Below are positions 24,869-39,846 of a DNA stretch of 64,000 nt, one piece after another (the first letter of the stretch is position 1; the number at the start of each line of letters is the position of its first letter). Source of the stretch: Actinoplanes sandaracinus (lineage in GTDB: Bacteria; Actinomycetota; Actinomycetes; Mycobacteriales; Micromonosporaceae); assembly GCF_030009775.1 (NCBI RefSeq), contig NZ_JASCTH010000014.1, positions 70,343 through 134,342 on the forward strand, written 5' to 3'. The translations under genes and the position numbers were made by a program. The notes under the pieces are model-generated. The model searched no databases. It saw only the letters and a list, made by a program, of their open reading frames with translations, and had not been told where the DNA came from.

Positions 24869-26995
24869 TCAGGCCGCGGGCAGCGACGAGACCGGCCGGG
24901 CGTCACCGAGGACCGGGTCGACCTCGTACATCCGGGCCTCGGCCAGGTCGAAGTACATCCCGGCGAGACGGAGACGGCCGGCGGCCTCGGCCGCCCGCAC
25001 CGTGGGCGAGGTACGCAGGTTCGCGAGCTGCTGGACCACGTTGTCGGCGCAGCAGCGTTCCTCGTCGGTGACGTCGCTGAACCGCACCCCGGAGAGGGCC
25101 AGCCATGCGCCGAGCGCCGAGCCGGCCCCGGCGGCGTCGTTCATCAGGGCCCGGACGGCGCCGCAGCCGGAGTGGCCGCAGACGGTGATGGTGGTGACGC
25201 CGAGGATGTTCACCGCGTACTCGACGGCGGCGCTGACCGAGGTGTCGCCCGAGGCGTGCGGCGGGACGATGTTGCCGATGTTGCGCACGCAGAACAGGTC
25301 GCCCGGGCCACTCGCGGTGATCAGGTTGGGGACCACGCGGGAGTCGGCGCAGGTGATGAAGAGCTGCTGCGGGCTCTGGCCGTCACGGGCCAGGTCGGCC
25401 AGGTGCGGGCGGACCAGCGGGGCCACGCTGCGTTCGAACTCGGCGATCCCGGCCTCCATCGCGCCCCGGCGCTGCTGGTCCATGTCTTGCCAGCGAGACC
25501 AGGAGCCGAGCAGCCGCGGGGTGCGCTTGCCGCCGCCGAGCCGGCCCGACGTGGCCTGGTGGAACCAGGAGTCGTGCACCTCCCGGATCCGCACCGCGCC
25601 GCCGGTCCGCTCGTAGCCCTCCCGCCAGTCCCGGATCGTCTCGAACGCCCCGTGGTCCAGGTAGTCCAGGTGCAGCTCGACGTCGATCTCGGCGCCCGGC
25701 GGCAGAGCGCCGAGTTCCCGGCTGAGGCGGGCCGACTCGACGAACGACAGGGTCCCGTTGATGGTGACCAGCCACTCGCCGGGGGCACGCTCGACCCGGC
25801 GGATGTCCGACCGGGCGAGCCGGCCCAGGATCAGGACCGCCGCCGTGATCATGCCGAGGGCGACGCCGGTGAGCAGGTCGGTGAAGACCACGCCGAGCGC
25901 CGTGACCAGATAGGTGGGCAGTTCCCGGTGCCGGGCGTAGGTGCGGATCTGGGCCAGGCTGACCAGCCGCAGGCCGACGACGATCAGCACGGCGGCGAGC
26001 ACCGCCATCGGGATGGCCTCCAGCAGCCCGGCACAGAGCAGCACGAACCCCGCGATCCACACGCCGTGCAGGATCGCCGACGCCCTGGTCCGGGCGCCGG
26101 CCGCCACGTTGGCCGAGCTGCGCACGATCACGCCGGTCACCGGCAGGCCGCCGAGCAGGCCGGACGTGGTGTTGGCGACGCCCTGGCCGACGAGTTCCCG
26201 GTTCAGGTCGGCGCGCGGCCCGTCGTGCAGCCGGTCGACGGCGACCGCGGAGAGCAGTGATTCGACGCTGGCGACCAGGGCGATGGTCAGCACCGCGACG
26301 GCGATCTCGCGAAGTGGCGCGTCCGGCCAGGCGGGCCGGATCAGGTTCGCGAGGGGCTCGCCGGGAAGCCGCACGCGTTCCACATCGGCGTCGACGGCGG
26401 CGGCGAGCGCGGTCACCGAGACCACGGCGACCAGGGCGGCGGGCAGCAACGAGACCTTCACGATGCGGGGCCACAGCACCAGCACCGCGACGGTGAGGGC
26501 GCCGAGCAGGGCGGCCGCGCCGTGGTGGGCGGCGATCTGGCCGGGCAGGTCGACGAGGTTGCGCCAGGCGGAACTCTGCGGCGCCCCGCCGAGCATCACG
26601 TGGACCTGGCTGAGCGCGATGACCACGCCGATGCCGGCGAGCATGCCGTGCACCACGGCCGGCGACAGGGCGAGAGCGGCACGGCCGAGGCGGGACACGC
26701 CGAGGAGGATCTGGACTCCCCCGGCGACCGCGACGATCGCGGCGGTGCCGGCGAACCCGAAGTCGGCGACGGTCCCGGCGACGATCACGGTGAGACCGGC
26801 AGCAGGGCCGCTGACCTGCAGCGGGGCGCCGCCGAGCGATCCGGCGACGATGCCGCCGATCACGGCCGCGACCAGGCCGGCGAGCAGGGGCGCACCCGAT
26901 GCCGCGGCGATGCCGAGGGAGAGCGGGATGGCGATCAGGAATACGACGATGGACGCCGGCAAGTCCCGGCGCAAAAACTGCGTCAAGTCGGACAT
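24869..26995 (-). CDS. SulP-family anion transporter fused to beta-carbonic anhydrase
   Basis: A 708-residue membrane fusion protein. Residues 1 to about 410 form a SulP transporter (RRDLPASIVVFLIAIPLSLG; SGLLGGLPVTGVIVRSSANV). A STAS-like segment follows (WLVTINGTLSFVESARL). The last 190 residues are a beta-carbonic anhydrase with zinc ligands in CADSRVV (about residue 549) and CGHSGCGAVRAL (about 607). The arrangement suggests bicarbonate uptake coupled to CO2/bicarbonate interconversion at the inner face of the membrane. The start MSDLTQFLRRDLP is chosen because it matches the family N-terminus; a longer frame upstream has no support. Such fusions are known in other bacteria; the transported ion here is inferred. 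Confidence 0.94.
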   Translation of the reverse strand: MSDLTQFLRRDLPASIVVFLIAIPLSLGIAAASGAPLLAGLVAAVIGGIVAGSLGGAPLQVSGPAAGLTVIVAGTVADFGFAGTAAIVAVAGGVQILLGVSRLGRAALALSPAVVHGMLAGIGVVIALSQVHVMLGGAPQSSAWRNLVDLPGQIAAHHGAAALLGALTVAVLVLWPRIVKVSLLPAALVAVVSVTALAAAVDADVERVRLPGEPLANLIRPAWPDAPLREIAVAVLTIALVASVESLLSAVAVDRLHDGPRADLNRELVGQGVANTTSGLLGGLPVTGVIVRSSANVAAGARTRASAILHGVWIAGFVLLCAGLLEAIPMAVLAAVLIVVGLRLVSLAQIRTYARHRELPTYLVTALGVVFTDLLTGVALGMITAAVLILGRLARSDIRRVERAPGEWLVTINGTLSFVESARLSRELGALPPGAEIDVELHLDYLDHGAFETIRDWREGYERTGGAVRIREVHDSWFHQATSGRLGGGKRTPRLLGSWSRWQDMDQQRRGAMEAGIAEFERSVAPLVRPHLADLARDGQSPQQLFITCADSRVVPNLITASGPGDLFCVRNIGNIVPPHASGDTSVSAAVEYAVNILGVTTITVCGHSGCGAVRALMNDAAGAGSALGAWLALSGVRFSDVTDEERCCADNVVQQLANLRTSPTVRAAEAAGRLRLAGMYFDLAEARMYEVDPVLGDARPVSSLPAA

Positions 26996-27170
26996 TTCGG
27001 CAATGTACCCAATGAGGGTTAACGGGTGATTACGGAAATGCTCCTTACCGTCAAGGCACAGCAAACCGCCACCTGGCACTCAGCCAGGCGGCGGCAGGCC
27101 ACCGGCCCACGAAGGCCAGGCGGCGGATAAGGAGCCGGCCGACCGGGAGCCGGACGGCGGGCGAACAGCT

Positions 27171-28492: not shown

Positions 28493-31084
28493 ATGACAGA
28501 GTCACTCCAGGCGGAACACCACCTGTCCCTCGGCCGGGCAGCACTGACTCTCGGGGTGGAGGAGGAACTCCACGTCGTCGATCTCGGAACGCGGGAGCTC
28601 GTACCCCGCGCTCCGGAGATCCTGGACCGGCTGGACGCCGCGCACTTCTCGGCGGAGCTGCACCGGTCGGTGGTGGAGACGAACACCCCGGTCAGCGGCA
28701 CCCTGGACGATCTGCGGACCGGGATCACACAGCGGCGCCGGGAGGCGATCGCCGTCGCCGAGTCGCTGGGGCTGGGCCTGGTCGCGGCCGGCACCGTTCC
28801 GCTGGTCGATCTGGACGCGCTGCCGGTCACCCCGACCTCGCGGTACCAGCGGATGCTGCACGAGTACCAGATGCTCGTCCGCGAGCAGCTGATCTGCGGC
28901 ACCCAGGTGCACGTCGGGGTTCCCGACCGGGACGAGGCGGTCGCGGTCGCCCAGCGGGTGACGCCGGTGCTGCCGGTGCTGCTCGCTCTCTCCACCAGCT
29001 CGCCGTACTGGATGGGCGAGGACTCCGGGTACGCCAGTGTCCGCTCGCTGGTCTGGATGCGCTGGCCGACCGCCGGCGACAGCGGCCAGCTGCACTCGGC
29101 CGAGGAGCACGAGGCGCTGGTCAGTGACCTGATCGCGTCCGGCACGATCAGCGACCCGAAGATGGTCTACTTCGACGTCCGGCCGTCCGCGCACGTGCCC
29201 ACGGTGGAGCTGCGGGTCACCGACTCCAGCCCCGACACCGAGACGATCGTGCTGCTCGCCGGGATCTTCCGTGGCCTGGTGCTGCGCGCCCAGCAGGACC
29301 ACCGGGCCGGCGTTCCCCTGCCCCGGCCGAGGCCGCCGCTGCACCGCGCCGCGATGTGGCGGGCCGCCCGGTCCGGCCTGGAAGGCGACCTGCTGGACCT
29401 GCCCCGCTCCCCGGTTCCGGTGCCGGCCGCCGTCGCGGTCGAGCGCTTGGTCGGCGAACTGCGGCCGCAGTTGGAGGAGCTGGGCGACTGGGACCAGGTC
29501 TTCGACCTGACCGTGCGGGCGCTGAGCCGGGGCAGTTCGGCCGCTCGCCAGCGCCGGGCGCTGGCCCGGCGCGGCCGGCTCTCCGACGTGGTGGACCTGC
29601 TGGTGACGGACACCCGGGGCGGGGTCACCGAGACCGGTCCGGCGGGCGTTCCGGCGCCGGCCCTGATCGAGGCGTACGCCGCCGACGGCGACGAGGCGTT
29701 CTTGAATGTGCCCGGCCCGGAGGGCCGGGTGGCGCCCGCCTACACCGGGATCCTGCCGGTGCTGACCTCGCTCGGCGCGACCGGCCTGCGGCAGCGGGAG
29801 GACGCCCGCGACGACGAGCAGCGGGCCCGCGGCATCACGTTCAGCGTGGCCGGCGAGGCCGCCACCCGGCTGTTCCCGTTCGACCTGGTACCCCGGGTGG
29901 TCCCCGCCGCCGACTGGAAGCGGCTGCAGGGCGGCCTGATCCAGCGGGTCCGGGCGCTGGACGCGTTCCTCAACGACGTCTACGGCGATCGGCAGGTGGT
30001 GGCCGACGGCGTCATCCCGGAGTGGGTCGTCAACGGCTCCCCCGAACTGCGGGCCAGCGGCGCCCTGATCAGCCGGCCCGCGGTGCGCACCCAGGTGGCC
30101 GGCGTCGACCTGGTCCGGGACGGGGCGGGCGACTGGTGCGTGCTGGAGGACAACCTGCGGGTGCCGTCCGGGATCGCGTACGCCATGCAGAACCGCCGTC
30201 TCACCTGGAGCGTCCTGCCCGAGTTGCCCCGTCCGGCGGCGCTGATCTCGGTGGAGGAGACTCCGCGCCTGCTCAAGACCGCCCTGCTGGAGGCGGCCGG
30301 CCCGGCCGCCGGTGACGATCCGGCGCTGGTCGTGCTCAGTCAGGGCCCGGACGACTCGGCCTGGTTCGAGCACCGGATGCTCGCCGAGGCGATGGGCGTG
30401 CCGCTGGTCCGCAGCACCGAACTGTTCGTCGACGAGCGCCGGGTGTGGCGTCTCAAGGACGGGCACCGGCACCCGGTCGACATCATCTACCTGCGGATGG
30501 GCGAGGACAGCCTGGTCCACTCCCCCGGCGCGGACGGCATGCCGCTCGGCCCCAGCCTGGTGGCCGCGTTGCACGCGGACACCGTGGTGCTGGCCAACGC
30601 GCTGGGCAACGGCATCGCCGACGACAAGTCGGTGTACGCCTTCGTGCCCCGCATGATCGAGTACTACCTGGGCGAGAAGCCGCTTCTCGCCGACGTGCCC
30701 ACCTATCTGTGCGGCATCCCGGAGCAGCGCGCCGAGGTGCTGCGCCGCCTCGACGAGCTGGTCTGCAAGCCGGTCGACGGTTACGGCGGCGACCGGATCG
30801 TGATCGGCTCCCACGCGACCGCGGAGGAGCTGGCGGCGCTGCGGCGGCAGATCAAGGCGGCGCCGCACCGGTGGGTGGCCCAGGAGATCGTCGACCTGTC
30901 GACGCATCCGGTCTTCGACGGGCACCGGCTCGCCCCGCGGCACGTCGACCTGCGCGCGTTCATCTTCACCGGGCGGCAATCGGTGGTGGCGCCGGCCGCG
31001 CTCACCCGGGTCGCGCCCGCCGGAAGCATGATCGTCAACTCCTCGCGGGGTGGCGGCTCCAAGGACACCTGGTTGCTCGGCTGA
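28493..31084 (+). CDS. Carboxylate-amine ligase (GCS2) fused to circularly permuted ATP-grasp ligase
   Basis: An 863-residue two-enzyme fusion. Residues 1 to about 370 form a glutamate-cysteine-ligase type 2 (YbdK-like) domain with LGVEEELHVVD, ICGTQVHVGVPDRDEA and VELRVTDSSPDTET. Residues from about 410 form a circularly permuted ATP-grasp domain (DUF404/407 type) with FLNDVYGDRQVV, CVLEDNLRVPSGIAYAMQNR, VSVYAFVPRMIEYY-like SVYAFVPRMIEYYLGEKP, and KPVDGYGGDRIVIG. Both halves are predicted to form amide bonds using ATP. The start is the ATG after AAGGAC; an in-frame ATG at 28469 is possible. The next gene, an amidotransferase, begins 31 bp later after a strong ribosome site. The product is unknown; a short modified peptide is the simplest inference. 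Confidence 0.93.
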   Translation: MTESLQAEHHLSLGRAALTLGVEEELHVVDLGTRELVPRAPEILDRLDAAHFSAELHRSVVETNTPVSGTLDDLRTGITQRRREAIAVAESLGLGLVAAGTVPLVDLDALPVTPTSRYQRMLHEYQMLVREQLICGTQVHVGVPDRDEAVAVAQRVTPVLPVLLALSTSSPYWMGEDSGYASVRSLVWMRWPTAGDSGQLHSAEEHEALVSDLIASGTISDPKMVYFDVRPSAHVPTVELRVTDSSPDTETIVLLAGIFRGLVLRAQQDHRAGVPLPRPRPPLHRAAMWRAARSGLEGDLLDLPRSPVPVPAAVAVERLVGELRPQLEELGDWDQVFDLTVRALSRGSSAARQRRALARRGRLSDVVDLLVTDTRGGVTETGPAGVPAPALIEAYAADGDEAFLNVPGPEGRVAPAYTGILPVLTSLGATGLRQREDARDDEQRARGITFSVAGEAATRLFPFDLVPRVVPAADWKRLQGGLIQRVRALDAFLNDVYGDRQVVADGVIPEWVVNGSPELRASGALISRPAVRTQVAGVDLVRDGAGDWCVLEDNLRVPSGIAYAMQNRRLTWSVLPELPRPAALISVEETPRLLKTALLEAAGPAAGDDPALVVLSQGPDDSAWFEHRMLAEAMGVPLVRSTELFVDERRVWRLKDGHRHPVDIIYLRMGEDSLVHSPGADGMPLGPSLVAALHADTVVLANALGNGIADDKSVYAFVPRMIEYYLGEKPLLADVPTYLCGIPEQRAEVLRRLDELVCKPVDGYGGDRIVIGSHATAEELAALRRQIKAAPHRWVAQEIVDLSTHPVFDGHRLAPRHVDLRAFIFTGRQSVVAPAALTRVAPAGSMIVNSSRGGGSKDTWLLG

Positions 31085-31115
31085 GCATTCTCAACCCCCT
31101 AGGGAGGAGTTCCAC

Positions 31116-32888
31116 ATGTGCGGAATCGCCGGAGAGATCTGTTACGGCGACCGGCCCGCGGACACCGAGGCGATCCGGAGGATGCTCCCGTGTCTGGAGT
31201 CGCGAGGACCCGACGGTGACGGATTGTGGGACCGAGGGAGGATCGCTTTCGGTCATCGGCGCCTGAAGATCATCGACCTGTCGGAGGCCGGCGCCCAGCC
31301 GATGACCGACGAGCGGCTGGGCCTGACCGTCGTCTTCAACGGGTGTGTCTACAACTATCAGGAGCTGCGCGAGGAGCTTCAGAAGAGCGGCTACACGTTC
31401 TTCTCGACGTCGGACACCGAGGTGATCCTCAAGGCGTACCACCGCTGGGGCGCCGACTGCGTCACGCGTTTCCTCGGCATGTTCGCCTTCGCGGTCGCCG
31501 AGCACGAGACCGGGACGGTCACCCTGGCCCGGGACCGGCTCGGGATCAAGCCGCTCTACCTGGCCGAGTCGCCGGGACGGCTGCGGTTCGCCTCGACGCT
31601 GCCGGCCCTGCTGGCGGCGGGCGGGGTGGACACCACCATCGACAAGGTGGCGTTGCAGCACTACATGACGTTCCACTCGGTGGTCCCGGCGCCCCGCACG
31701 ATCCTCTCCGGGGTGCGGAAACTGCCGCCGGCCACGGTACGGGTGATCCAGGCCGACGGGACGTCGAGTGAACGGGTGTACTGGGAGGCGTCGTTCACCC
31801 GTACCGTCGCCGCCTCGGACCGTGAGTGGGCCGAAGCGGTGCGGGACAAGCTCAAGCAGGCGGTGCGGCGGCGGATGGTCGCCGACGTGCCGGTCGGCGT
31901 GCTGCTCTCCGGCGGCCTGGACTCCAGTTTCATCGTCGCCCTGCTCGCCGAACAGGGACAGACCGGGCTGACCACGTTCAGCATCGGGTTCGATGCCGGC
32001 GGTGGCGAGAGCGGCGACGAGTTCGAGTTCTCGGATCTGGTCGCCAAGCAGTTCGGCACCGAGCACCATCAGATCAGGATCGGTCAGGAGCGGTTCCTGC
32101 CGGCGGTGCAGCGAACCGTGACGGCGATGAGCGAGCCGATGGTGAGCCACGACTGCATCGCGTTCAACCTGCTCAGCGAAGATGTGGCGAAGCAGGTCAA
32201 GGTCGTACAATCAGGGCAAGGCGCGGATGAGATCTTCGCCGGATACAGCTGGTACCCACCCCTCGCCGGCGTCCCCCGGGAGCAGGCCGCCGAGGCCTAT
32301 GCGAAGGAGTTCTTCGACCGGCCGCACAGCGACCTGACCCGGCAACTCAACCCGGAGTGGCTGGTCGGCCAGGACGTCAGCCGCGCCTTCGTGGAGGAGA
32401 GTTTCGGCCGGGCCGGAGCCACCACCGCCGTCGATGCCGCGCTGCGCCTCGACTCCCAGGTGATGCTCGTGGACGACCCGGTCAAACGAGTCGACAACAT
32501 GACTATGGCGTGGGGGCTGGAGGCACGCGTACCGTTCCTGGATCACGAGCTGGTGGAGATCGCGGCGGCCTGCCCGCCCGAGCTGAAACTGGCCCGCGAC
32601 GGCAAGGGAGTGCTCAAGGACGCGGCCCGCGGGCTGGTCCCGGACGAGGTCATCGACCGGCCGAAAGGCTATTTCCCGGTGCCCGGCATCCGGTACCTGG
32701 AAGGCCCGGTGCTCGACCTCGTCCGCGACGCGCTGCACGCGCCGGCGGCCCGGCAACGGGCGCTGTTCCGGCCGGAGTACGTCGAGGCGCTCCTGGCCGA
32801 CCCGAACACCCCGCGCACCACGCTCGGGGCGAACCAGTTGTGGCAACTCGCACTGCTGGAGATGTGGTTGCAGAACCTCAAGCTGTGA
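31116..32888 (+). CDS. Asparagine synthetase-family amidotransferase (N-acetylglutaminylglutamine amidotransferase-like)
   Basis: A 590-residue class II glutamine amidotransferase/asparagine synthetase. Cys2 in MCGIAGEICYG is the glutaminase nucleophile, with CLESRGPDGDG and VFNGCVYNYQELR in the same domain. The synthetase domain has the PP-loop VLLSGGLDSSFIVALL (about residues 263-278) and SGQGADEIFAGYSWY. The sequence resembles the branch that amidates N-acetylglutaminylglutamine to the osmolyte NAGGN more than true asparagine synthetase, judging from SQVMLVDDPVKRVDNMTMAW and neighbouring genes. GGGAGGAG precedes the ATG. It is followed by a peptidase whose GTG overlaps this stop. It probably amidates the product of the upstream fused ligase, which is inference. 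Confidence 0.93.
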   Translation: MCGIAGEICYGDRPADTEAIRRMLPCLESRGPDGDGLWDRGRIAFGHRRLKIIDLSEAGAQPMTDERLGLTVVFNGCVYNYQELREELQKSGYTFFSTSDTEVILKAYHRWGADCVTRFLGMFAFAVAEHETGTVTLARDRLGIKPLYLAESPGRLRFASTLPALLAAGGVDTTIDKVALQHYMTFHSVVPAPRTILSGVRKLPPATVRVIQADGTSSERVYWEASFTRTVAASDREWAEAVRDKLKQAVRRRMVADVPVGVLLSGGLDSSFIVALLAEQGQTGLTTFSIGFDAGGGESGDEFEFSDLVAKQFGTEHHQIRIGQERFLPAVQRTVTAMSEPMVSHDCIAFNLLSEDVAKQVKVVQSGQGADEIFAGYSWYPPLAGVPREQAAEAYAKEFFDRPHSDLTRQLNPEWLVGQDVSRAFVEESFGRAGATTAVDAALRLDSQVMLVDDPVKRVDNMTMAWGLEARVPFLDHELVEIAAACPPELKLARDGKGVLKDAARGLVPDEVIDRPKGYFPVPGIRYLEGPVLDLVRDALHAPAARQRALFRPEYVEALLADPNTPRTTLGANQLWQLALLEMWLQNLKL

Positions 32889-34786
32889 AGGGGACCCTGG
32901 TGGGTGGTCAGCTCCATCGCAACGACGTCACCGTGCTGCCGGCGGGCTGGACCAGCCCCGCCGGGCGGATCGAGTCGGAGATAGCCGGCAGTTGGTCGCC
33001 GGCCCTCTCCCCCGACGGCCGGCACGTCGCGTACGTCTCCGACCGGGACGGTGTGCCCGCCGTCTGGGTGCAACCGGTCGACAGCGAGCTGACCTTCCGC
33101 GTCGACACCGGGCCGGAACCGGTGTCGACGGTGCGCTGGTCGTCCGGAGGCGGCTGGCTGGCCTGCCAGATCGCCCCCGGCGGCGCGCCCCGGCACGAGA
33201 TCTGGCTGGTCCGGCCGGACGGCTCCGACCTGCACCAGGTCGCCGGGTTCGGCGCCGACACCGCCGACAACATGCGGTGGCTGCCGGGCCGGCCGGTCCT
33301 CGCCCTCACCGAGAACCTCACCACCGCCGTGCTGATCGACGTGGTCGCCGGGACCAGGACCGAGGTCACCGAGGGAGACCTCCTCTCGCTTCTCGACGTC
33401 GACCCCGCCGGGCGTTTCGCGCTGCTGCGGTACGGGCCCCGCGGCGCCCGCGAGATCGTCCTGCGCGACCTGTCCCGCGGCACCGAGAAGCCGGTGACCC
33501 GCGGCGAGAAGGCGGTGTTCAGCCCGGGCGGCGGCTGCGTCTACGCGCTCAGCCAGGACGGGGAGTTCCCCGCCCTGCTGCGGCTCGCCGGCGACGCCGT
33601 GGAACTGCTCGCCGGCTCACCCACACCCGAGCCACCCGCCGCCTCCTCCGGGGCGGGGCCGCTCGCCGCCGCTTCCGAGGCCGGGCCCCTCGCCGCCACT
33701 TCGGGGGACGAGCCGCTCGGCGGGCCGTCGGAGGTCGAGGACTTCGTGGTGACGGCCGACGGGCGTACCGCCGCGGTGTTGTGGAACGTCCGGGGCGGCG
33801 AGTCGGAGATCGCGCTGATCGGCCTGGACCACGACGCCGGCCGCGCCCCGGCGTTGATCTCGCCCTTGCCCGGCCTGGTCGCCACCGACCTCGCGTGGAG
33901 CTTCGACTCCTCGGCGCTGGCCTTCACCGCGGAAGGGCCGGGACAGCCGCACGGTGTCTGGGTCTGGAGCCGGGAGACCGGCCGGGTGCGGGCGGTCGCC
34001 GCCGACCCGGCCGCCGCCGACGCGGTCCGGCCGACGCTCGAGACGTTCCCGGCACACGACGGGCTGACGCTGACCGGCTGGCTCTTCCGGCCGCGGACGC
34101 CCGGCCCGCACCCGGTGGTGCTGTGGTTCCACGGCGGCCCCGAAGCGCAGGAGCGGCCCGGTCACGGGCCGCTCTTCCAGTCGCTGGTCAACCACGGAAT
34201 CGCGGTCTTCGCCCCGAACGTGCGCGGCTCCTCCGGCTTCGGGCGGTCGTTCGTCGACGCCGACAACGGGGCGCTGCGTCACGGTGCGATCGAGGACGTG
34301 CGCAGTTGCGTGCGGTTCCTGAGGTCCGCCGGGATCACCGGGCGGATGGGGATCATGGGACGGTCCTACGGCGGCTATCTCACGCTGGCGGCGCTGACCA
34401 CCTTCCCCGACCTGTTCGACGTCGGCATCGACGTCTGCGGGATGTCGGACTTCGCGACCTTCTACGAGCACACCGAGCCGTGGATCGCGGCCGCCGCGGT
34501 CAGCAAGTACGGCCACCCGGTCCACGACGCGGAACTGCTGCGCGAGCTGTCGCCGATCCACCGGATCGACCGGGTGCGGGCGCCGCTGATGGTGGTGCAC
34601 GGCGAGAACGACAGCAACGTGCCGGTGATCGAGGCCGAGCAGGTGGTGGCGGCGCTGGCGGCACGCGAGCATCCACATCGCTACCTGCTCTTCCCGGACG
34701 AGGGGCACGAGCTGCTGCACCGGACGTCGCGCGCCGAATATCTGCACGCCACGATCCACTGGCTGAAGACACACCTCCACGTGTGA
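32885..34786 (+). CDS. S9-family (prolyl oligopeptidase-type) peptidase
   Basis: A 633-residue serine peptidase. The first 370 residues form a WD40-like propeller (SPALSPDGRHVAYVSDRDG; AWSFDSSALAFTAEG). The C-terminal alpha/beta hydrolase has the nucleophile Ser in MGRSYGGYLT (about residue 494), Asp in VVHGENDSNVP (about 576) and His in FPDEGHELLHR (about 608). A Ala/Ser/Pro linker with a near repeat (SGAGPLAAASEAGPLAA) interrupts the propeller near residue 255. The GTG start overlaps the amidotransferase stop (GTGA). No signal peptide is visible, so it is cytoplasmic. Its place at the end of a ligase-amidotransferase operon suggests it hydrolyses the compound made by those enzymes. Confidence 0.93.
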   Translation: MKGTLVGGQLHRNDVTVLPAGWTSPAGRIESEIAGSWSPALSPDGRHVAYVSDRDGVPAVWVQPVDSELTFRVDTGPEPVSTVRWSSGGGWLACQIAPGGAPRHEIWLVRPDGSDLHQVAGFGADTADNMRWLPGRPVLALTENLTTAVLIDVVAGTRTEVTEGDLLSLLDVDPAGRFALLRYGPRGAREIVLRDLSRGTEKPVTRGEKAVFSPGGGCVYALSQDGEFPALLRLAGDAVELLAGSPTPEPPAASSGAGPLAAASEAGPLAATSGDEPLGGPSEVEDFVVTADGRTAAVLWNVRGGESEIALIGLDHDAGRAPALISPLPGLVATDLAWSFDSSALAFTAEGPGQPHGVWVWSRETGRVRAVAADPAAADAVRPTLETFPAHDGLTLTGWLFRPRTPGPHPVVLWFHGGPEAQERPGHGPLFQSLVNHGIAVFAPNVRGSSGFGRSFVDADNGALRHGAIEDVRSCVRFLRSAGITGRMGIMGRSYGGYLTLAALTTFPDLFDVGIDVCGMSDFATFYEHTEPWIAAAAVSKYGHPVHDAELLRELSPIHRIDRVRAPLMVVHGENDSNVPVIEAEQVVAALAAREHPHRYLLFPDEGHELLHRTSRAEYLHATIHWLKTHLHV

Positions 34787-35381: not shown

Positions 35382-35525
35382 CCACGGGGTCGTCACCGCC
35401 TCGCGGGACCGTTGACGGCGCTCCATGTCACACCGGTCGTGCGCACCGCCACGGGCCGAGGCGGTCGCCGATCGCCCCTGTGGCATGGAAGGCTGCACGG
35501 GAGACTTCAGGAGCGAGGAAGCGCC

Positions 35526-36683
35526 GTGGGCATGATCAAAGTTGTCGGTCTCGTGCTGCATCCGCGCCGGGACTGTGGTTCCGCGATCGACGCCATCGTC
35601 GAGTGGGCCGCGAAACGGGGCGTGACCGTTCTCGGCCTGCCCGACGAGATCAGCCGGATCAACTGCGCGGCCGTCGCGGTCTCCGCCGAGGAGATGGTGG
35701 AACGCGCCGGGCTGCTGGTGAGCCTCGGCGGCGACGGCACCATGCTGCGGACGATGCGGCTGGTCGAGGGGCGTAAGACGCCGGTGCTCGGGGTCAACGT
35801 CGGGCGGCTCGGGTTCCTCGCCGAGGTGGATCTCGCCGGGCTTGAGGACGCGCTGTCCGCCATCGACGACCACCGCTACACCGTCGAGTCCCGGACGGCG
35901 GTGCGCACCACCCTGCCGGACGGGCGGGAGGTGTCGGCGTTCAACGACATCGCCCTGGTCCGGGTGCCGGGGCACGGGCTGGCCGCGGTCGGCATCCGGG
36001 TGGAGGGGCGCGGCTTCGTCAACTACGCCGCCGACGCCGTGATCGTCTCCACACCGACCGGGTCGACGGCGTACAGCTTCTCGGCGGGCGGCCCGATCGT
36101 CTCGCCGAACGTGGAGGCCCTGATCGTCAGCGCCGCAGCGGCGCACTCGTCGTTCAACCGGTCGCTGGTGCTGGACACGTCCGAGCATCTCGCTCTCGAC
36201 GTGCTGCCGAGCAGCGGCCGTCTGGCGATCGAGGTGGACGGCATCATCGAGGGCCACGCCGAGGCCGGTGCCCGGCTGGACGTGCGGCCGGTGCCGGCCG
36301 CGGCCCAGGTGATCCGTTTCGGCAGCACCTCCTTCTACGAACGGGCCCGCCGCAAGCTGCGGGTCGAGGGCAGCGCCTCGGCCGTCGCCGCCGACACCGA
36401 CAGCGCGGTCGTCGTCGACAGCTTCGAGCGGCGAAGGTATGAGGTGCTACTCGGTGGCGAGGTCGCCGGTGTCCTCGACTACCGCCGCGGCGACGGCCGG
36501 ATCGAGCTGCTGCGCACCGAGATCGACCAGGCGTTCTCCGGCCGTGGGCTGGCCGGCCGGCTGGCCGCGGCCGCACTGGCCGACGCCCGGTCGCGGGGGT
36601 TGCCGGTCGTCGCCGGTTGCCCGTTCGTCGCGGGCTATCTCGAACGCCATCCCGAACATCTCGCCGACGACCTCGGCCACTGA
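35526..36683 (+). CDS. NAD kinase fused to a GNAT (NATD1/YjdJ-like) acetyltransferase domain
   Basis: A 385-residue fusion. Residues 1 to about 285 are an ATP-NAD kinase that makes NADP, with VSLGGDGTMLRTMRL (about residues 61-75), NVGRLGFLAEV, FNDIALVR and STPTGSTAYSFSAGGPIVSP. The last 85 residues form a small GNAT-like domain, YEVLLGGEVAGVLDYRRGDG followed by QAFSGRGLAGRLAAAALADA and PFVAGYLERHPEH, as in NATD1/YjdJ proteins. Ordinary NAD kinases end before this. The frame is continuous with no internal ribosome site. GAGGAA precedes the GTG; an ATG two codons later is possible. The next gene starts 38 bp downstream and encodes an NADPH-type flavoprotein, so NADP supply may be linked to it. 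Confidence 0.92.
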   Translation: MGMIKVVGLVLHPRRDCGSAIDAIVEWAAKRGVTVLGLPDEISRINCAAVAVSAEEMVERAGLLVSLGGDGTMLRTMRLVEGRKTPVLGVNVGRLGFLAEVDLAGLEDALSAIDDHRYTVESRTAVRTTLPDGREVSAFNDIALVRVPGHGLAAVGIRVEGRGFVNYAADAVIVSTPTGSTAYSFSAGGPIVSPNVEALIVSAAAAHSSFNRSLVLDTSEHLALDVLPSSGRLAIEVDGIIEGHAEAGARLDVRPVPAAAQVIRFGSTSFYERARRKLRVEGSASAVAADTDSAVVVDSFERRRYEVLLGGEVAGVLDYRRGDGRIELLRTEIDQAFSGRGLAGRLAAAALADARSRGLPVVAGCPFVAGYLERHPEHLADDLGH

Positions 36684-36721
36684 CGACCATCCTGATCACG
36701 AGAGCTGAGGGCAACGTCACC

Positions 36722-38380
36722 ATGGGCCATGCCGCGATCCTCACGGTCGACGACGACCCGTCCGTCTCGCGCGCCATCGCGCGCGACCTACGGCGGCGCT
36801 ACGCCGACCGGTACCGGGTGATCCGGGCCTCGTCGGGCGACGAGGCGCTCGAGGTGCTGCGCGAGCTGAAACTGCGCGGCGGGCGGGTGGCGGTGATCCT
36901 CGCCGACTACCGGATGCCGCAGATGAACGGCATCGAGTTCCTGGAACACGCGATGGACCTGTTCCCGCACGCCCGGCGGGCGCTGCTCACCGCCTATGCC
37001 GACACCGACGCGGCGATCCAGGCGATCAACGTGGTCGACGTCGACCACTACCTGCTCAAGCCGTGGGATCCGCCGGAGGAGAAGCTCTACCCGGTGCTGG
37101 ACGCGCTGCTCGACGCGTGGGAGGCCACCGGCGAGCAGGAACTGCCCGACATCAGGCTGGTCGGGCACCGGTGGAGCGAGCCGTCCTTCCAGATCCGCGA
37201 CTTCCTCGCCCGCAACCTGGTGCCCTACAAGTACTTCGGCGCCGACGAGCCGGAGGGCCGCCGCCTGCTGGAGGCGGCGGAGGCCGGGCCGGAATCGGTG
37301 CCGCTGGTGGTGACCGCCGACGGGCGCGCGCTGTCCCGGCCGACCGTGCAGGAGATCGCCGAGGTGGCCGGCCTCTCCACGAACCCGGGCCGCGACTTCT
37401 ACGACCTGATCATCGTGGGCGGCGGGCCGGCCGGTCTGGGCGCGGCGGTCTACGGCGGCTCCGAAGGCCTCAAGACGCTGCTGATCGAGCGGCAGGCGGT
37501 CGGCGGGCAGGCCGGGCAGAGCTCCCGGATCGAGAACTACCTCGGCTTCCCGGACGGCATCTCCGGCGCCCAGCTCACCGACCGGGCCCGGCGGCAGGCC
37601 GACAAGTTCGCCGCCGAGACGATCAGCACCCGTGAGGTCGTCGGGCTCCGCGCCGACGGCTCGGCCCGCACGCTGACCTTCGCCGACGGCGGGGAGATCT
37701 CCGCACACGCCGTCCTGCTCGCGACCGGGGTGTCCTACCGCCCGCTGGTGGCCGACGGCGTCGCCGGCCTGACCGGGTCCGGGGTCTTCTACGGCTCGGC
37801 CGCCACCGAGGGGCCGGCCTGCGCCGGCACCGACGTCTACATCGTCGGCGGCGCCAACTCGGCCGGGCAGGCGGCGCTGTTCTTCGCCAAGTACGCCCGC
37901 CGGGTCACCCTGCTGGTCCGTGGGGACTCGCTGGAGTCCTCCATGTCGTACTACCTGATCCAGCAGCTCGCCCAGATCGACAACATCGAGGTGCGGACCC
38001 GCTGTGAGGTGATCGGCGCGCACGGCGACGGCCATCTGCAGGCGATCACCATCTGCGACAGCAAGAACGGTACGAAAGCGACCGTCGAGTGCGGGTACCT
38101 GTTCGTGTTCATCGGGGCGGAACCGCGTACCGACTGGCTCGGCGACACCCTGCTGCGGGACGGGAAGGGGTTCATCCGTACCGGAACGGACCTGCTCGTG
38201 AACGGGGAGCGTCCACGGGGATGGGATCGCGACCGGGATCCGTTCTATCTGGAGAGCAGTGTCCCCGGCATCTTCGCCGCCGGCGACGTCCGGGCCAGCT
38301 CGGTGAAACGGGTGGCCTCGGCGGTCGGTGAGGGTGCGATGGCCGTCGCGCTGGTCCACCGCTACCTGGAGGCCCCATGA
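36722..38380 (+). CDS. Response regulator fused to cysteine-less glutaredoxin-like and thioredoxin-reductase-like flavoprotein
   Basis: A 552-residue three-part protein. Residues 1 to about 135 are a receiver domain with the phospho-acceptor in VILADYRMPQMNG, plus LLTAY and LLKPW. Residues about 140-215 look like a thioredoxin/glutaredoxin fold (GHRWSEPSFQIRDFLARNLV and ESVPLVVTADGRAL) in which the CxxC position reads SEPS. From about 225 it is a thioredoxin-reductase-like FAD/NADPH domain (LIIVGGGPAGLGAAV; VYIVGGANSAGQAALF; VPGIFAAGDVR). The redox CxxC that should lie before the NADPH motif reads SAAT (GVFYGSAATEGPACAG). So both disulfide centres are missing. The stop overlaps the start of a histidine kinase (ATGA), its probable partner. 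Confidence 0.94.
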   Translation: MGHAAILTVDDDPSVSRAIARDLRRRYADRYRVIRASSGDEALEVLRELKLRGGRVAVILADYRMPQMNGIEFLEHAMDLFPHARRALLTAYADTDAAIQAINVVDVDHYLLKPWDPPEEKLYPVLDALLDAWEATGEQELPDIRLVGHRWSEPSFQIRDFLARNLVPYKYFGADEPEGRRLLEAAEAGPESVPLVVTADGRALSRPTVQEIAEVAGLSTNPGRDFYDLIIVGGGPAGLGAAVYGGSEGLKTLLIERQAVGGQAGQSSRIENYLGFPDGISGAQLTDRARRQADKFAAETISTREVVGLRADGSARTLTFADGGEISAHAVLLATGVSYRPLVADGVAGLTGSGVFYGSAATEGPACAGTDVYIVGGANSAGQAALFFAKYARRVTLLVRGDSLESSMSYYLIQQLAQIDNIEVRTRCEVIGAHGDGHLQAITICDSKNGTKATVECGYLFVFIGAEPRTDWLGDTLLRDGKGFIRTGTDLLVNGERPRGWDRDRDPFYLESSVPGIFAAGDVRASSVKRVASAVGEGAMAVALVHRYLEAP

Positions 38381-39846
38381 TGTCCGAAATCGACGAGGTC
38401 CGCCTCGAACCCTGCGCACCCGGCAAGCTCGACCCGGCCGAGCTGCGGACCCTGTTCCTGTTCGAGAAGCTGAGCGACGAGCAGCTCGCCTGGCTGGCCG
38501 AGCACGGCTGCACCCAGCGCGTCGCGTCCGGCGGCCTGGTGCTGCGCGAGGGCGATCCGGCCGTGTCGTTCTTCGTGCTGCTCAGTGGCACGGTGGCGCT
38601 GAGCCGCCGGGTCGGCGAGGACGACGTGACGACGGTCCGGACCGAACAGCGCGGCGTCTACATGGGCGCGACCCAGGCCTACGTGCGCGACGACGGGGTC
38701 CCCCGGAAGTACGCGGCGTCGATGCGGGCCCTCTCCGACAGCGAGTTCTTCGTGCTCTCCGCCGACGACTTCGGGTCGCTGATGCGCGAGTGGTTCCCGA
38801 TGGCCATCCACCTGCTGGAAGGGCTGACCCTCGGCTTGCAGAACACCCAGGCCGCGATCGGCGAACGGCAGCGGCTGGCCGCGCTCGGCGCCCTCTCCGC
38901 CGGCCTCATGCACGAGCTGAACAACCCGGCCGCGGCCGCCGCGCGGGCCACCAGCGCGCTGCGCCAGCGGGTCGCCGCGATGCGGATGAAACTCGGCAAA
39001 CTCGCCGCCGGCAAGGTCGCCCCGGACCGGCTCACCGCGCTCCTCGAGCTCCAGGAGGAGGTCATCGAGCGGGCCGCCAAGGCGCCGGCGCTGACCGCCA
39101 TGCAGACCGCCGACCTGGAGGACGAGCTCGGCGACTGGATGGACGAGCGGAACATCACCGGCGGCTGGGACGTCGCCCCGATCTTCGCGCAGGGCAACAT
39201 CGACACCGAGTGCCTCACCGAGTTGGAGTCCCGGCTCGACTCGCCCGAGCTGCTCGACCAGGCGATCCACTGGATCGGTTACGCCCTGGAGACCGAGCAG
39301 CTGATGAGCGACATCGAGGACGCCACCGGCCGGGTGTCGTCGCTGGTGCTCGCCGCCAAACAGTATTCCCACCTCGACCGTGCCGCCCACCAGTGGATCG
39401 ACGTGCACGTCGGCCTGGACAGCACCTTGGTGATGCTCACCCACAAGATCGGTGAGGGTGTCCGGGTGGTCAAGGAGTACGACCGGGAGCTGCCCGAGGT
39501 GCCGGCCCACCCGGCCGAGCTGAACCAGGTGTGGACCAACCTGATCGACAACGCGGTCCAGGCCATGAACGGCGCCGGCACGCTGACGATCCGCACCTAC
39601 CGGGAGGACGACCGGCTCGTGGTCTCGGTCGGCGACACCGGCCCGGGCATGCCGCCCGAGATCCGCAAGCGGATCTTCGAGCCGTTCTTCACCACGAAGG
39701 CGGTCGGCGAGGGTACCGGGCTGGGACTGGACATCTCCTACCGGATCGTGGTCAACGGTCACGGCGGTGACATCCACGTGGAGACGAAACCGGGCGACAC
39801 CCGCTTCCTGGTCCGGCTGCCCTTCGCCGAGCCCTCCTCCGCCTGA
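38377..39846 (+). CDS. Histidine kinase with N-terminal cyclic-nucleotide-binding-type domain
   Basis: A 489-residue soluble sensor kinase. Residues about 25-150 form a CRP/cNMP-binding beta-roll ([40 protein letters not shown]), although the cyclic-nucleotide phosphate motif is weak. The H-box is [20 protein letters not shown] with the phospho-His near residue 182, followed by an unusually long helical linker to the ATPase domain ([40 protein letters not shown]). No membrane segment is present. The ATG overlaps the stop of the receiver-flavoprotein gene, so the two form a two-component pair. The signal could be a nucleotide or redox state; this is inferred. Confidence 0.95.

Follow-up and report, generated by a model that had tools for sequence, protein, structure and literature searches.

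The genes for the osmolyte N-acetylglutaminylglutamine amide (NAGGN), a peptide amide that bacteria make under salt stress, form a compact unit of amidotransferase (AT), ligase and hydrolase (asnO, ngg and M42), recognised by the families TIGR03104, TIGR03103 and TIGR03106, respectively; the ligase, NAGGN synthetase (Ngs), combines GNAT and ATP-grasp domains and is encoded downstream of the AT. In this study, we analyzed a trio of genes from Actinoplanes sandaracinus (GCF_030009775.1, contig NZ_JASCTH010000014.1, 70,343-134,342; this whole stretch of 64,000 nt is here called the window). The trio shares with the NAGGN genes a full-length TIGR03104 AT and the compact arrangement of ligase, AT and hydrolase. 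It differs in that the ligase, a fusion of a GCS2 domain with a circularly permuted ATP-grasp (CPAG) domain, lies upstream of the AT, the hydrolase belongs to family S9 instead of M42, and the tail motif of the AT is another one. Judging from sequence comparison, we hold with about even confidence that the trio represents a variant of the NAGGN cassette in actinobacteria, whose product would be a peptide amide other than NAGGN, probably a gamma-glutamyl one, serving as a solute and recycled by the S9 enzyme.

All three genes are on the + strand, in the order fusion (863 aa, 28493..31084), AT (590 aa, 31116..32888) and S9 hydrolase (633 aa, 32885..34786). The stop of the fusion and the start of the AT are 31 bp apart, and the AT stop is overlapped by the GTG start of the S9 gene (4-base overlap, GTGA); a preliminary description of this DNA had given the same genes, spacing and overlap, all of which were found in place. 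The 10.19 Mb genome (99 contigs) was searched for NAGGN genes. The AT of the trio was its sole match over the TIGR03104 cut-off, no NAGGN synthetase was found over the TIGR03103 cut-off (best 177.4 bits vs 569, on another contig), and TIGR03106 had zero matches at E <= 0.001. Since these two defining genes, TIGR03103 and TIGR03106, were tested for and not found, the locus is by membership not a NAGGN cassette, though it would work like one.

For comparison across genomes, the best 80 of at least 588 confirmed AT relatives, with one genome per species, were taken as the locus set; close relatives are thereby over-represented and the locus ratios are not a census. The window proteins and the three genes of an Azospirillum locus (L115), which pass TIGR03104, TIGR03103 and TIGR03106, served as references, and the neighbourhood within 8 kb of the AT was scored. 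NAGGN synthetase was present in 28 loci, among which M42 was found in 18 and S9 in none (the M42 match of L073 lay slightly past the 8 kb limit). GCS2 and/or CPAG was present in 48 loci, here called type II, with S9 in 41 and M42 in none. Two further loci had S9 only; their contigs break off 2133 and 230 bases ahead of the AT, on its upstream side. Two Kocuria loci had no reference ligase or hydrolase within 8 kb. The split by ligase type is thus clean, and the proposal of the preliminary description that ligase and hydrolase had been exchanged relative to the NAGGN trio was borne out. Its wording that the ligase families are unrelated stands in part: the ATP-grasp families differ, one being circularly permuted, but an ATP-grasp domain is common to both ligases. 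Hosts of type II loci include Actinoplanes relatives, Micromonospora, Pseudonocardia, Actinomycetospora, Actinomadura, Actinoallomurus, Geodermatophilus, Modestobacter, Klenkia, Kineosporia, Curtobacterium, Rathayibacter, Glaciihabitans, Amnibacterium, Streptomyces, Rubrobacter and others.

The components were also found to travel together. Across 31 same-strand loci, including the window, the divergences of GCS2, ATP-grasp, AT and S9 correlate at r = 0.90-0.96, values to which host ancestry contributes, and the observed value was reached in 0 of 999 permutations for each of the six pairs. A survey of 121 genomes of the family revealed the AT in 34, the full fusion in 17 and TIGR03103 in 15; an AT lay within 600 bp of the fusion in 17/17 cases and of Ngs in 15/15, no genome held Ngs and fusion together, and two genomes (G374 and G390) had an AT with neither. 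In the order survey of 249 genomes, 123 had the AT and 24 the fusion, which adjoined an AT in 19 of these 24. In the phylum survey (296 genomes), 31 genomes had an AT over the cut-off, and among the matches listed the full-length fusion occurred only in G000 and G086, both with an AT. Co-occurrence beyond the genus, on which the preliminary description had staked its proposal, was therefore observed. A strict linkage of fusion and AT, and a strict mutual exclusion of the two locus types, were also considered and dropped: the former holds in the family (17/17) but only in 19/24 genomes of the order, and the latter holds in the family (0/121) but is broken in the order by two genomes (G594 and G647).

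The AT comprises GATase_7 and Asn_synthase domains and scored 954.2 bits against TIGR03104, the NCBI family of NAGGN amidotransferases (cut-off 570.1), which upholds the parallel with the NAGGN trio drawn earlier; its identity to ATs on Sinorhizobium and Azospirillum plasmids is 59-64%. It also passes TIGR01536 (asparagine synthase; 449 bits vs 267.1), a result that would suit an ordinary asparagine synthetase standing beside unrelated metabolic genes. The TIGR03104 score is twice as high, however, and the AT of L115, a typical NAGGN locus, likewise passes TIGR01536 (448.4 bits). The Cys2 nucleophile, the SGGxD loop (Ser265-Gly267 and Asp269), Gln368, Asp371, Glu372 and Lys517 are identical in 120/120 aligned ATs. 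Gln368, found in both locus types, aligns with Glu-364 of human asparagine synthetase (ASNS), in which, according to the excerpt of PMC6748925, Ser362-Gly363-Glu364 and Asp367-Glu368 make up the pocket that receives the free amino group, the variants E364A and E364Q being inactive. Because Gln stands at this position in every aligned AT, ordinary asparagine synthetase activity, which by the preliminary description would refute its proposal, is made unlikely; the adjacency of fusion and AT in the family and the co-divergence speak against it too, and we rejected this explanation as hardly credible. Gln368, with Asp371 and Glu372 kept, would fit, in both locus types, an acceptor with a blocked amino group such as that of a peptide.

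Across the ligase switch the aligned AT core is hardly altered, and the strongest type-specific positions lie in residues 564-575 (32805..32840, + strand), where the window reads NTPRTTLGANQL. When 48 Ngs-linked ATs were compared with 45 linked to GCS2/CPAG, only 5 of 590 positions passed the filter (E398, I525, R567, T569 and G571), three of them within 567-571. In an information analysis of 117 sequences (L077, L079 and L136 left out; Ngs vs all other types), columns 567, 572, 571 and 569 were the most informative, and region 564-575 averaged 0.46 bit per column against 0.07-0.14 in the eight other regions. Two tail patterns composed after viewing the data, [LI]T[PVA]... and xxxxG[SAY], sort 47/48 Ngs ATs and 69/72 others, the exceptions being L031, L139 and the two Kocuria ATs. 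Among six loci fetched later, three with Ngs (L186, L187 and L191) and two with the fusion (L188 and L189) fit these patterns, and the AT of L190, which lies beside another GCS2 lineage, matches neither. The tail stretch serves as a sequence test that separates the two locus types. The excerpt of PMC11615228 describes a C-terminal tail without density in human ASNS structures; residues 564-575 fall in that tail, and this putative specificity stretch may touch the substrate. The two Kocuria proteins (L077 and L079) are TIGR03104 ATs with a tail, HTPLRSN, near the NAGGN type, yet the tree places them among type II ATs.

The fusion contains GCS2 (PF04107, 176.8 bits) at residues 20-296 (28550..29380, + strand) and CP_ATPgrasp_2 (PF14403/PF04174; PF14403, 422.3 bits, with the profile complete at positions 1-374/374) at residues 467-841 (29891..31015, + strand). 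It exceeds the cut-offs of NF010041 (359.1 bits vs 332) and TIGR02050 (275.6 vs 176.4). Among 8000 candidates scored, 4117 relatives were found at E <= 0.001, the near ones bearing the NCBI name 'carboxylate--amine ligase/circularly permuted type 2 ATP-grasp protein'. Catalytic motifs are intact in both halves. GVEEE at residues 21-25 represents the GhExE Mg/ATP signature, of which G21, E23, E24 and E25 are invariant in 35/35 aligned fusions, as are E552 D553 N554, K759, D819 L820 R821, N849 S850 S851 and G853-G855 of the ATP-grasp part. The solved structure matched by the latter is 3n6x (340.9 bits), a circularly permuted type 2 ATP-grasp protein; generic stand-alone proteins of this kind differ in that the AT-linked copies, including the stand-alone ones of Modestobacter and Klenkia, group separately. 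With the YbdK-type carboxylate-amine ligases (1r8g and 1tt4) the window protein shares the GCS2 domain, GhExE and other motifs and membership of TIGR02050, and it differs in being fused to an ATP-grasp domain and in forming a clade of its own with stand-alone Streptomyces copies.

A gamma-glutamyl ligase followed by an ATP-grasp domain in one chain is also the layout of the bifunctional glutathione synthetases (GshF/GshAB). The window differs from these by its GCS2-type ligase, its circularly permuted ATP-grasp and the AT downstream. The likeness in domain order, together with the passing of NF010041, titled glutamate--cysteine ligase, would suit a thiol resembling glutathione amide, for which GCS2 would couple Glu to Cys, the ATP-grasp domain would append one more residue and the AT would amidate the C terminus. 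Such a product is very improbable in our judgement: the GCS2 domain is closer to YbdK (90.3 bits) than to plant GCL (<=28 bits), the AT is of the NAGGN family, and nothing in the present analysis points to cysteine.

The S9 protein, of the prolyl oligopeptidase family (PF00326, 149.8 bits), has acylaminoacyl peptidases as its closest solved structures (5l8s, 2qzp and 1ve6). The match is mainly over the catalytic domain (residues 369-631), and the triad Ser494/Asp576/His608, which is kept, was found in 36/38 S9 frames, the remaining two being short and gapped at these columns. Acylaminoacyl peptidases act on N-blocked peptides. In one Rubrobacteraceae metagenome-assembled genome without S9, a DUF1028 protein follows the AT (L089:11806-12594) and may take the hydrolase role.

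For the substrates and the order of steps, as for the gamma linkage, the role as a solute and the task of the S9 enzyme, we infer the following. The AT would have been retained while peptide ligase and recycling hydrolase were exchanged. GCS2-fold ligases, for which the GhExE signature has been described, activate a carboxylate by phosphorylation, in most cases the gamma-carboxylate of glutamate, and link it with an amine (excerpt of PMC2588565); from this chemistry and the presence of the signature in the window, a gamma-glutamyl peptide is proposed as the first product, and a gamma linkage is plausible. The GCS2 domain would thus phosphorylate glutamate at its gamma-carboxylate and couple this group to the amine of another amino acid. 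Glutamine is the most likely partner, since the core of the AT, which deals with the C-terminal residue, differs very little from that of the NAGGN enzymes. A further residue or a cap could then be added by the ATP-grasp domain, after which the AT would adenylate the C-terminal carboxylate and amidate it with glutamine-derived ammonia. The end product would be a peptide amide without net charge; gamma-Glu-Gln amide, a zwitterion of zero net charge, would suit the role of a compatible solute. The acylaminoacyl-peptidase-like S9 enzyme would recycle it.

The fusion might instead be a non-orthologous replacement of NAGGN synthetase, so that the product would still be NAGGN, acetylated elsewhere. 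The almost identical AT cores of the two types, the absence of genomes with both Ngs and fusion in the family, and the likeness of the S9 enzyme to peptidases of N-blocked peptides would all agree with this. A Micromonospora strain carrying asnO and ngg is reported in the excerpt of PMC8146288 to produce NAGGN, so that this solute is used in the family of the window. We nevertheless regard this explanation as unlikely. The trio lacks a GNAT domain, and no acetyltransferase was seen among the 25 commonest families of the 64 flank proteins scanned (hand-picked from 160 listed); G594 and G647 hold a complete Ngs locus as well as a fusion locus; the AT tail varies with ligase type; and GCS2 enzymes activate the gamma-carboxylate. 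Two other leads from the literature were set aside. ABAGG, salt-induced in Micromonospora profundi, is an anthranilate-glycine-glycerol ester (excerpt of PMC10513789) and was dropped as a product candidate, being an ester and not a peptide amide. FRAAL1888 of Frankia alni, a PEG-induced amidotransferase paired by its paper with an acyltransferase (PMC5768760), was dropped as a comparison, as neither TIGR03104 membership nor a neighbouring ligase could be established from the excerpt of that paper.

Several observations weigh against a peptide amide that differs from NAGGN and is made by a fixed set of genes. That the AT core has barely changed might just as well reflect a product that stayed the same, and no metabolite data for the product of A. 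sandaracinus or of any type II locus were found in the open-licence literature searched. In the order survey, four of the 24 genomes with the fusion had no linked AT: one (G601) has only a distant, lower-scoring AT (903 bits), and G474, G531 and G653 have none (in a further genome, G585, the AT is on another contig, at a contig edge, which leaves the linkage undecided). Fusion and S9 are kept without an AT in L183 (G653) and L184 (G531), so that the ligase may also serve a purpose in which no amidation is involved; the two genes of L183 are separated by a xylose isomerase-like gene on the opposite strand. A strict unit is also contradicted by G594 and G647, where the fusion locus is accompanied by a second AT within the complete Ngs locus (L186 and L187). 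In a Streptomyces group of 13 ATs, GCS2 occurs without an adjoining ATP-grasp (the contig of L119 ends before any GCS2), and the Rubrobacter loci are without S9; accordingly, not every step is universal.

The two loci without an AT would agree with a peptide tag or peptide-modification system, in which the ligases add residues to a peptide or protein. Iyer is said to have proposed in 2009 a tagging role for other circularly permuted ATP-grasps and GCS2-like ligases. Circularly permuted ATP-grasps and GCS2-fold ligases do include peptide-tagging enzymes, and PafA is a member of the GCS2-like superfamily (excerpt of PMC2588565). We consider such a system rather improbable: the known partner pathway of this AT family yields a free small molecule, and neither a recurrent small peptide nor a conserved fourth gene was found beside the loci, the top family occurring in at most 3 of the 64 flank proteins, with frames of at least 100 aa covered. 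Osmotic-stress genes were also looked for, and none stood out among these 64 of 160 listed flank proteins.

Variants of the preferred peptide-amide trio differ in composition and order. In the Rubrobacter loci GCS2 and ATP-grasp are separate genes, and in Modestobacter and Klenkia the AT is followed by S9 and then by a stand-alone ATP-grasp. When five Streptomyces genomes were searched using the fusion as query, an ATP-grasp match at E <= 1e-20 was obtained only in G296; to judge from the Streptomyces loci that lack an ATP-grasp, GCS2 may be sufficient to supply the AT. Streptomyces G161 (L144) has kept a GCS2 of the AT-linked type, with no AT over the cut-off and none within 12 kb. A further AT clade (L126-L133; support 100) comprises eight Micromonosporaceae loci; a GCS2 of another lineage occurs in six of them and a glutamine synthetase near the AT in four, in many cases encoded on the other strand. 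In a Pseudonocardia metagenome-assembled genome, a type III glutamine synthetase lies on the opposite strand between fusion and AT (L067:7647-10064).

A tree of 109 ATs was constructed after removal of 2 outgroup rows and of 12 rows that were short or near-copies, in which 64 non-Ngs rows were grouped with support 96, with Rubrobacter and L136 outside. When all 68 non-Ngs ATs were forced into one clade, the likelihood was 12.07 log units above that of the free-search tree (p-AU 0.703); a single ligase switch would be compatible with the AT tree. The AT-linked GCS2s (fusions and Streptomyces), together with the G161 copy, which lacks an AT, were split from the other 24 GCS2s at 100/99, and the AT-linked ATP-grasps, Rubrobacter excepted, formed a 34-row group in a quick tree (SH-aLRT 91).

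Other genes near the trio in the window were recorded as well. A sulfate permease family transporter joined to a carbonic anhydrase domain is encoded at 24869-27079 (- strand), and at 35412-36683 a single chain unites NAD kinase domains with a GNAT-like acetyltransferase domain. At 36617-39846, a response-regulator receiver/pyridine nucleotide-disulphide oxidoreductase fusion is followed by a cNMP-binding protein with a histidine-kinase-like ATPase, possibly a redox/cyclic-nucleotide signalling pair.

No description of this operon was found in the open-licence literature searched, and novelty in print is established no further than that. Through the TIGR03104 equivalog of NCBI the ATs of such loci bear the NAGGN name, as in records of Streptomyces plasmids, though a NAGGN synthetase is absent from the loci. 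Should their product be another one, actinobacterial annotations and counts of NAGGN clusters would mislead, and amidated peptide solutes of this class would have gone unrecognised; should it be NAGGN after all, there would be a second route to it. We tentatively suggest, with somewhat less confidence than an even judgement would carry, that TIGR03104 ATs are the constant part of a wider scheme in which ligases (GNAT/ATP-grasp; GCS2 with CPAG; GCS2 by itself; another GCS2 lineage, in some cases with a glutamine synthetase) and hydrolases (M42 or S9, perhaps others) are exchangeable. They would give a family of peptide amides read by the C-terminal stretch of the AT, and the window may then specify a gamma-glutamyl peptide amide not described before, which soil actinobacteria would use as a new compatible solute.

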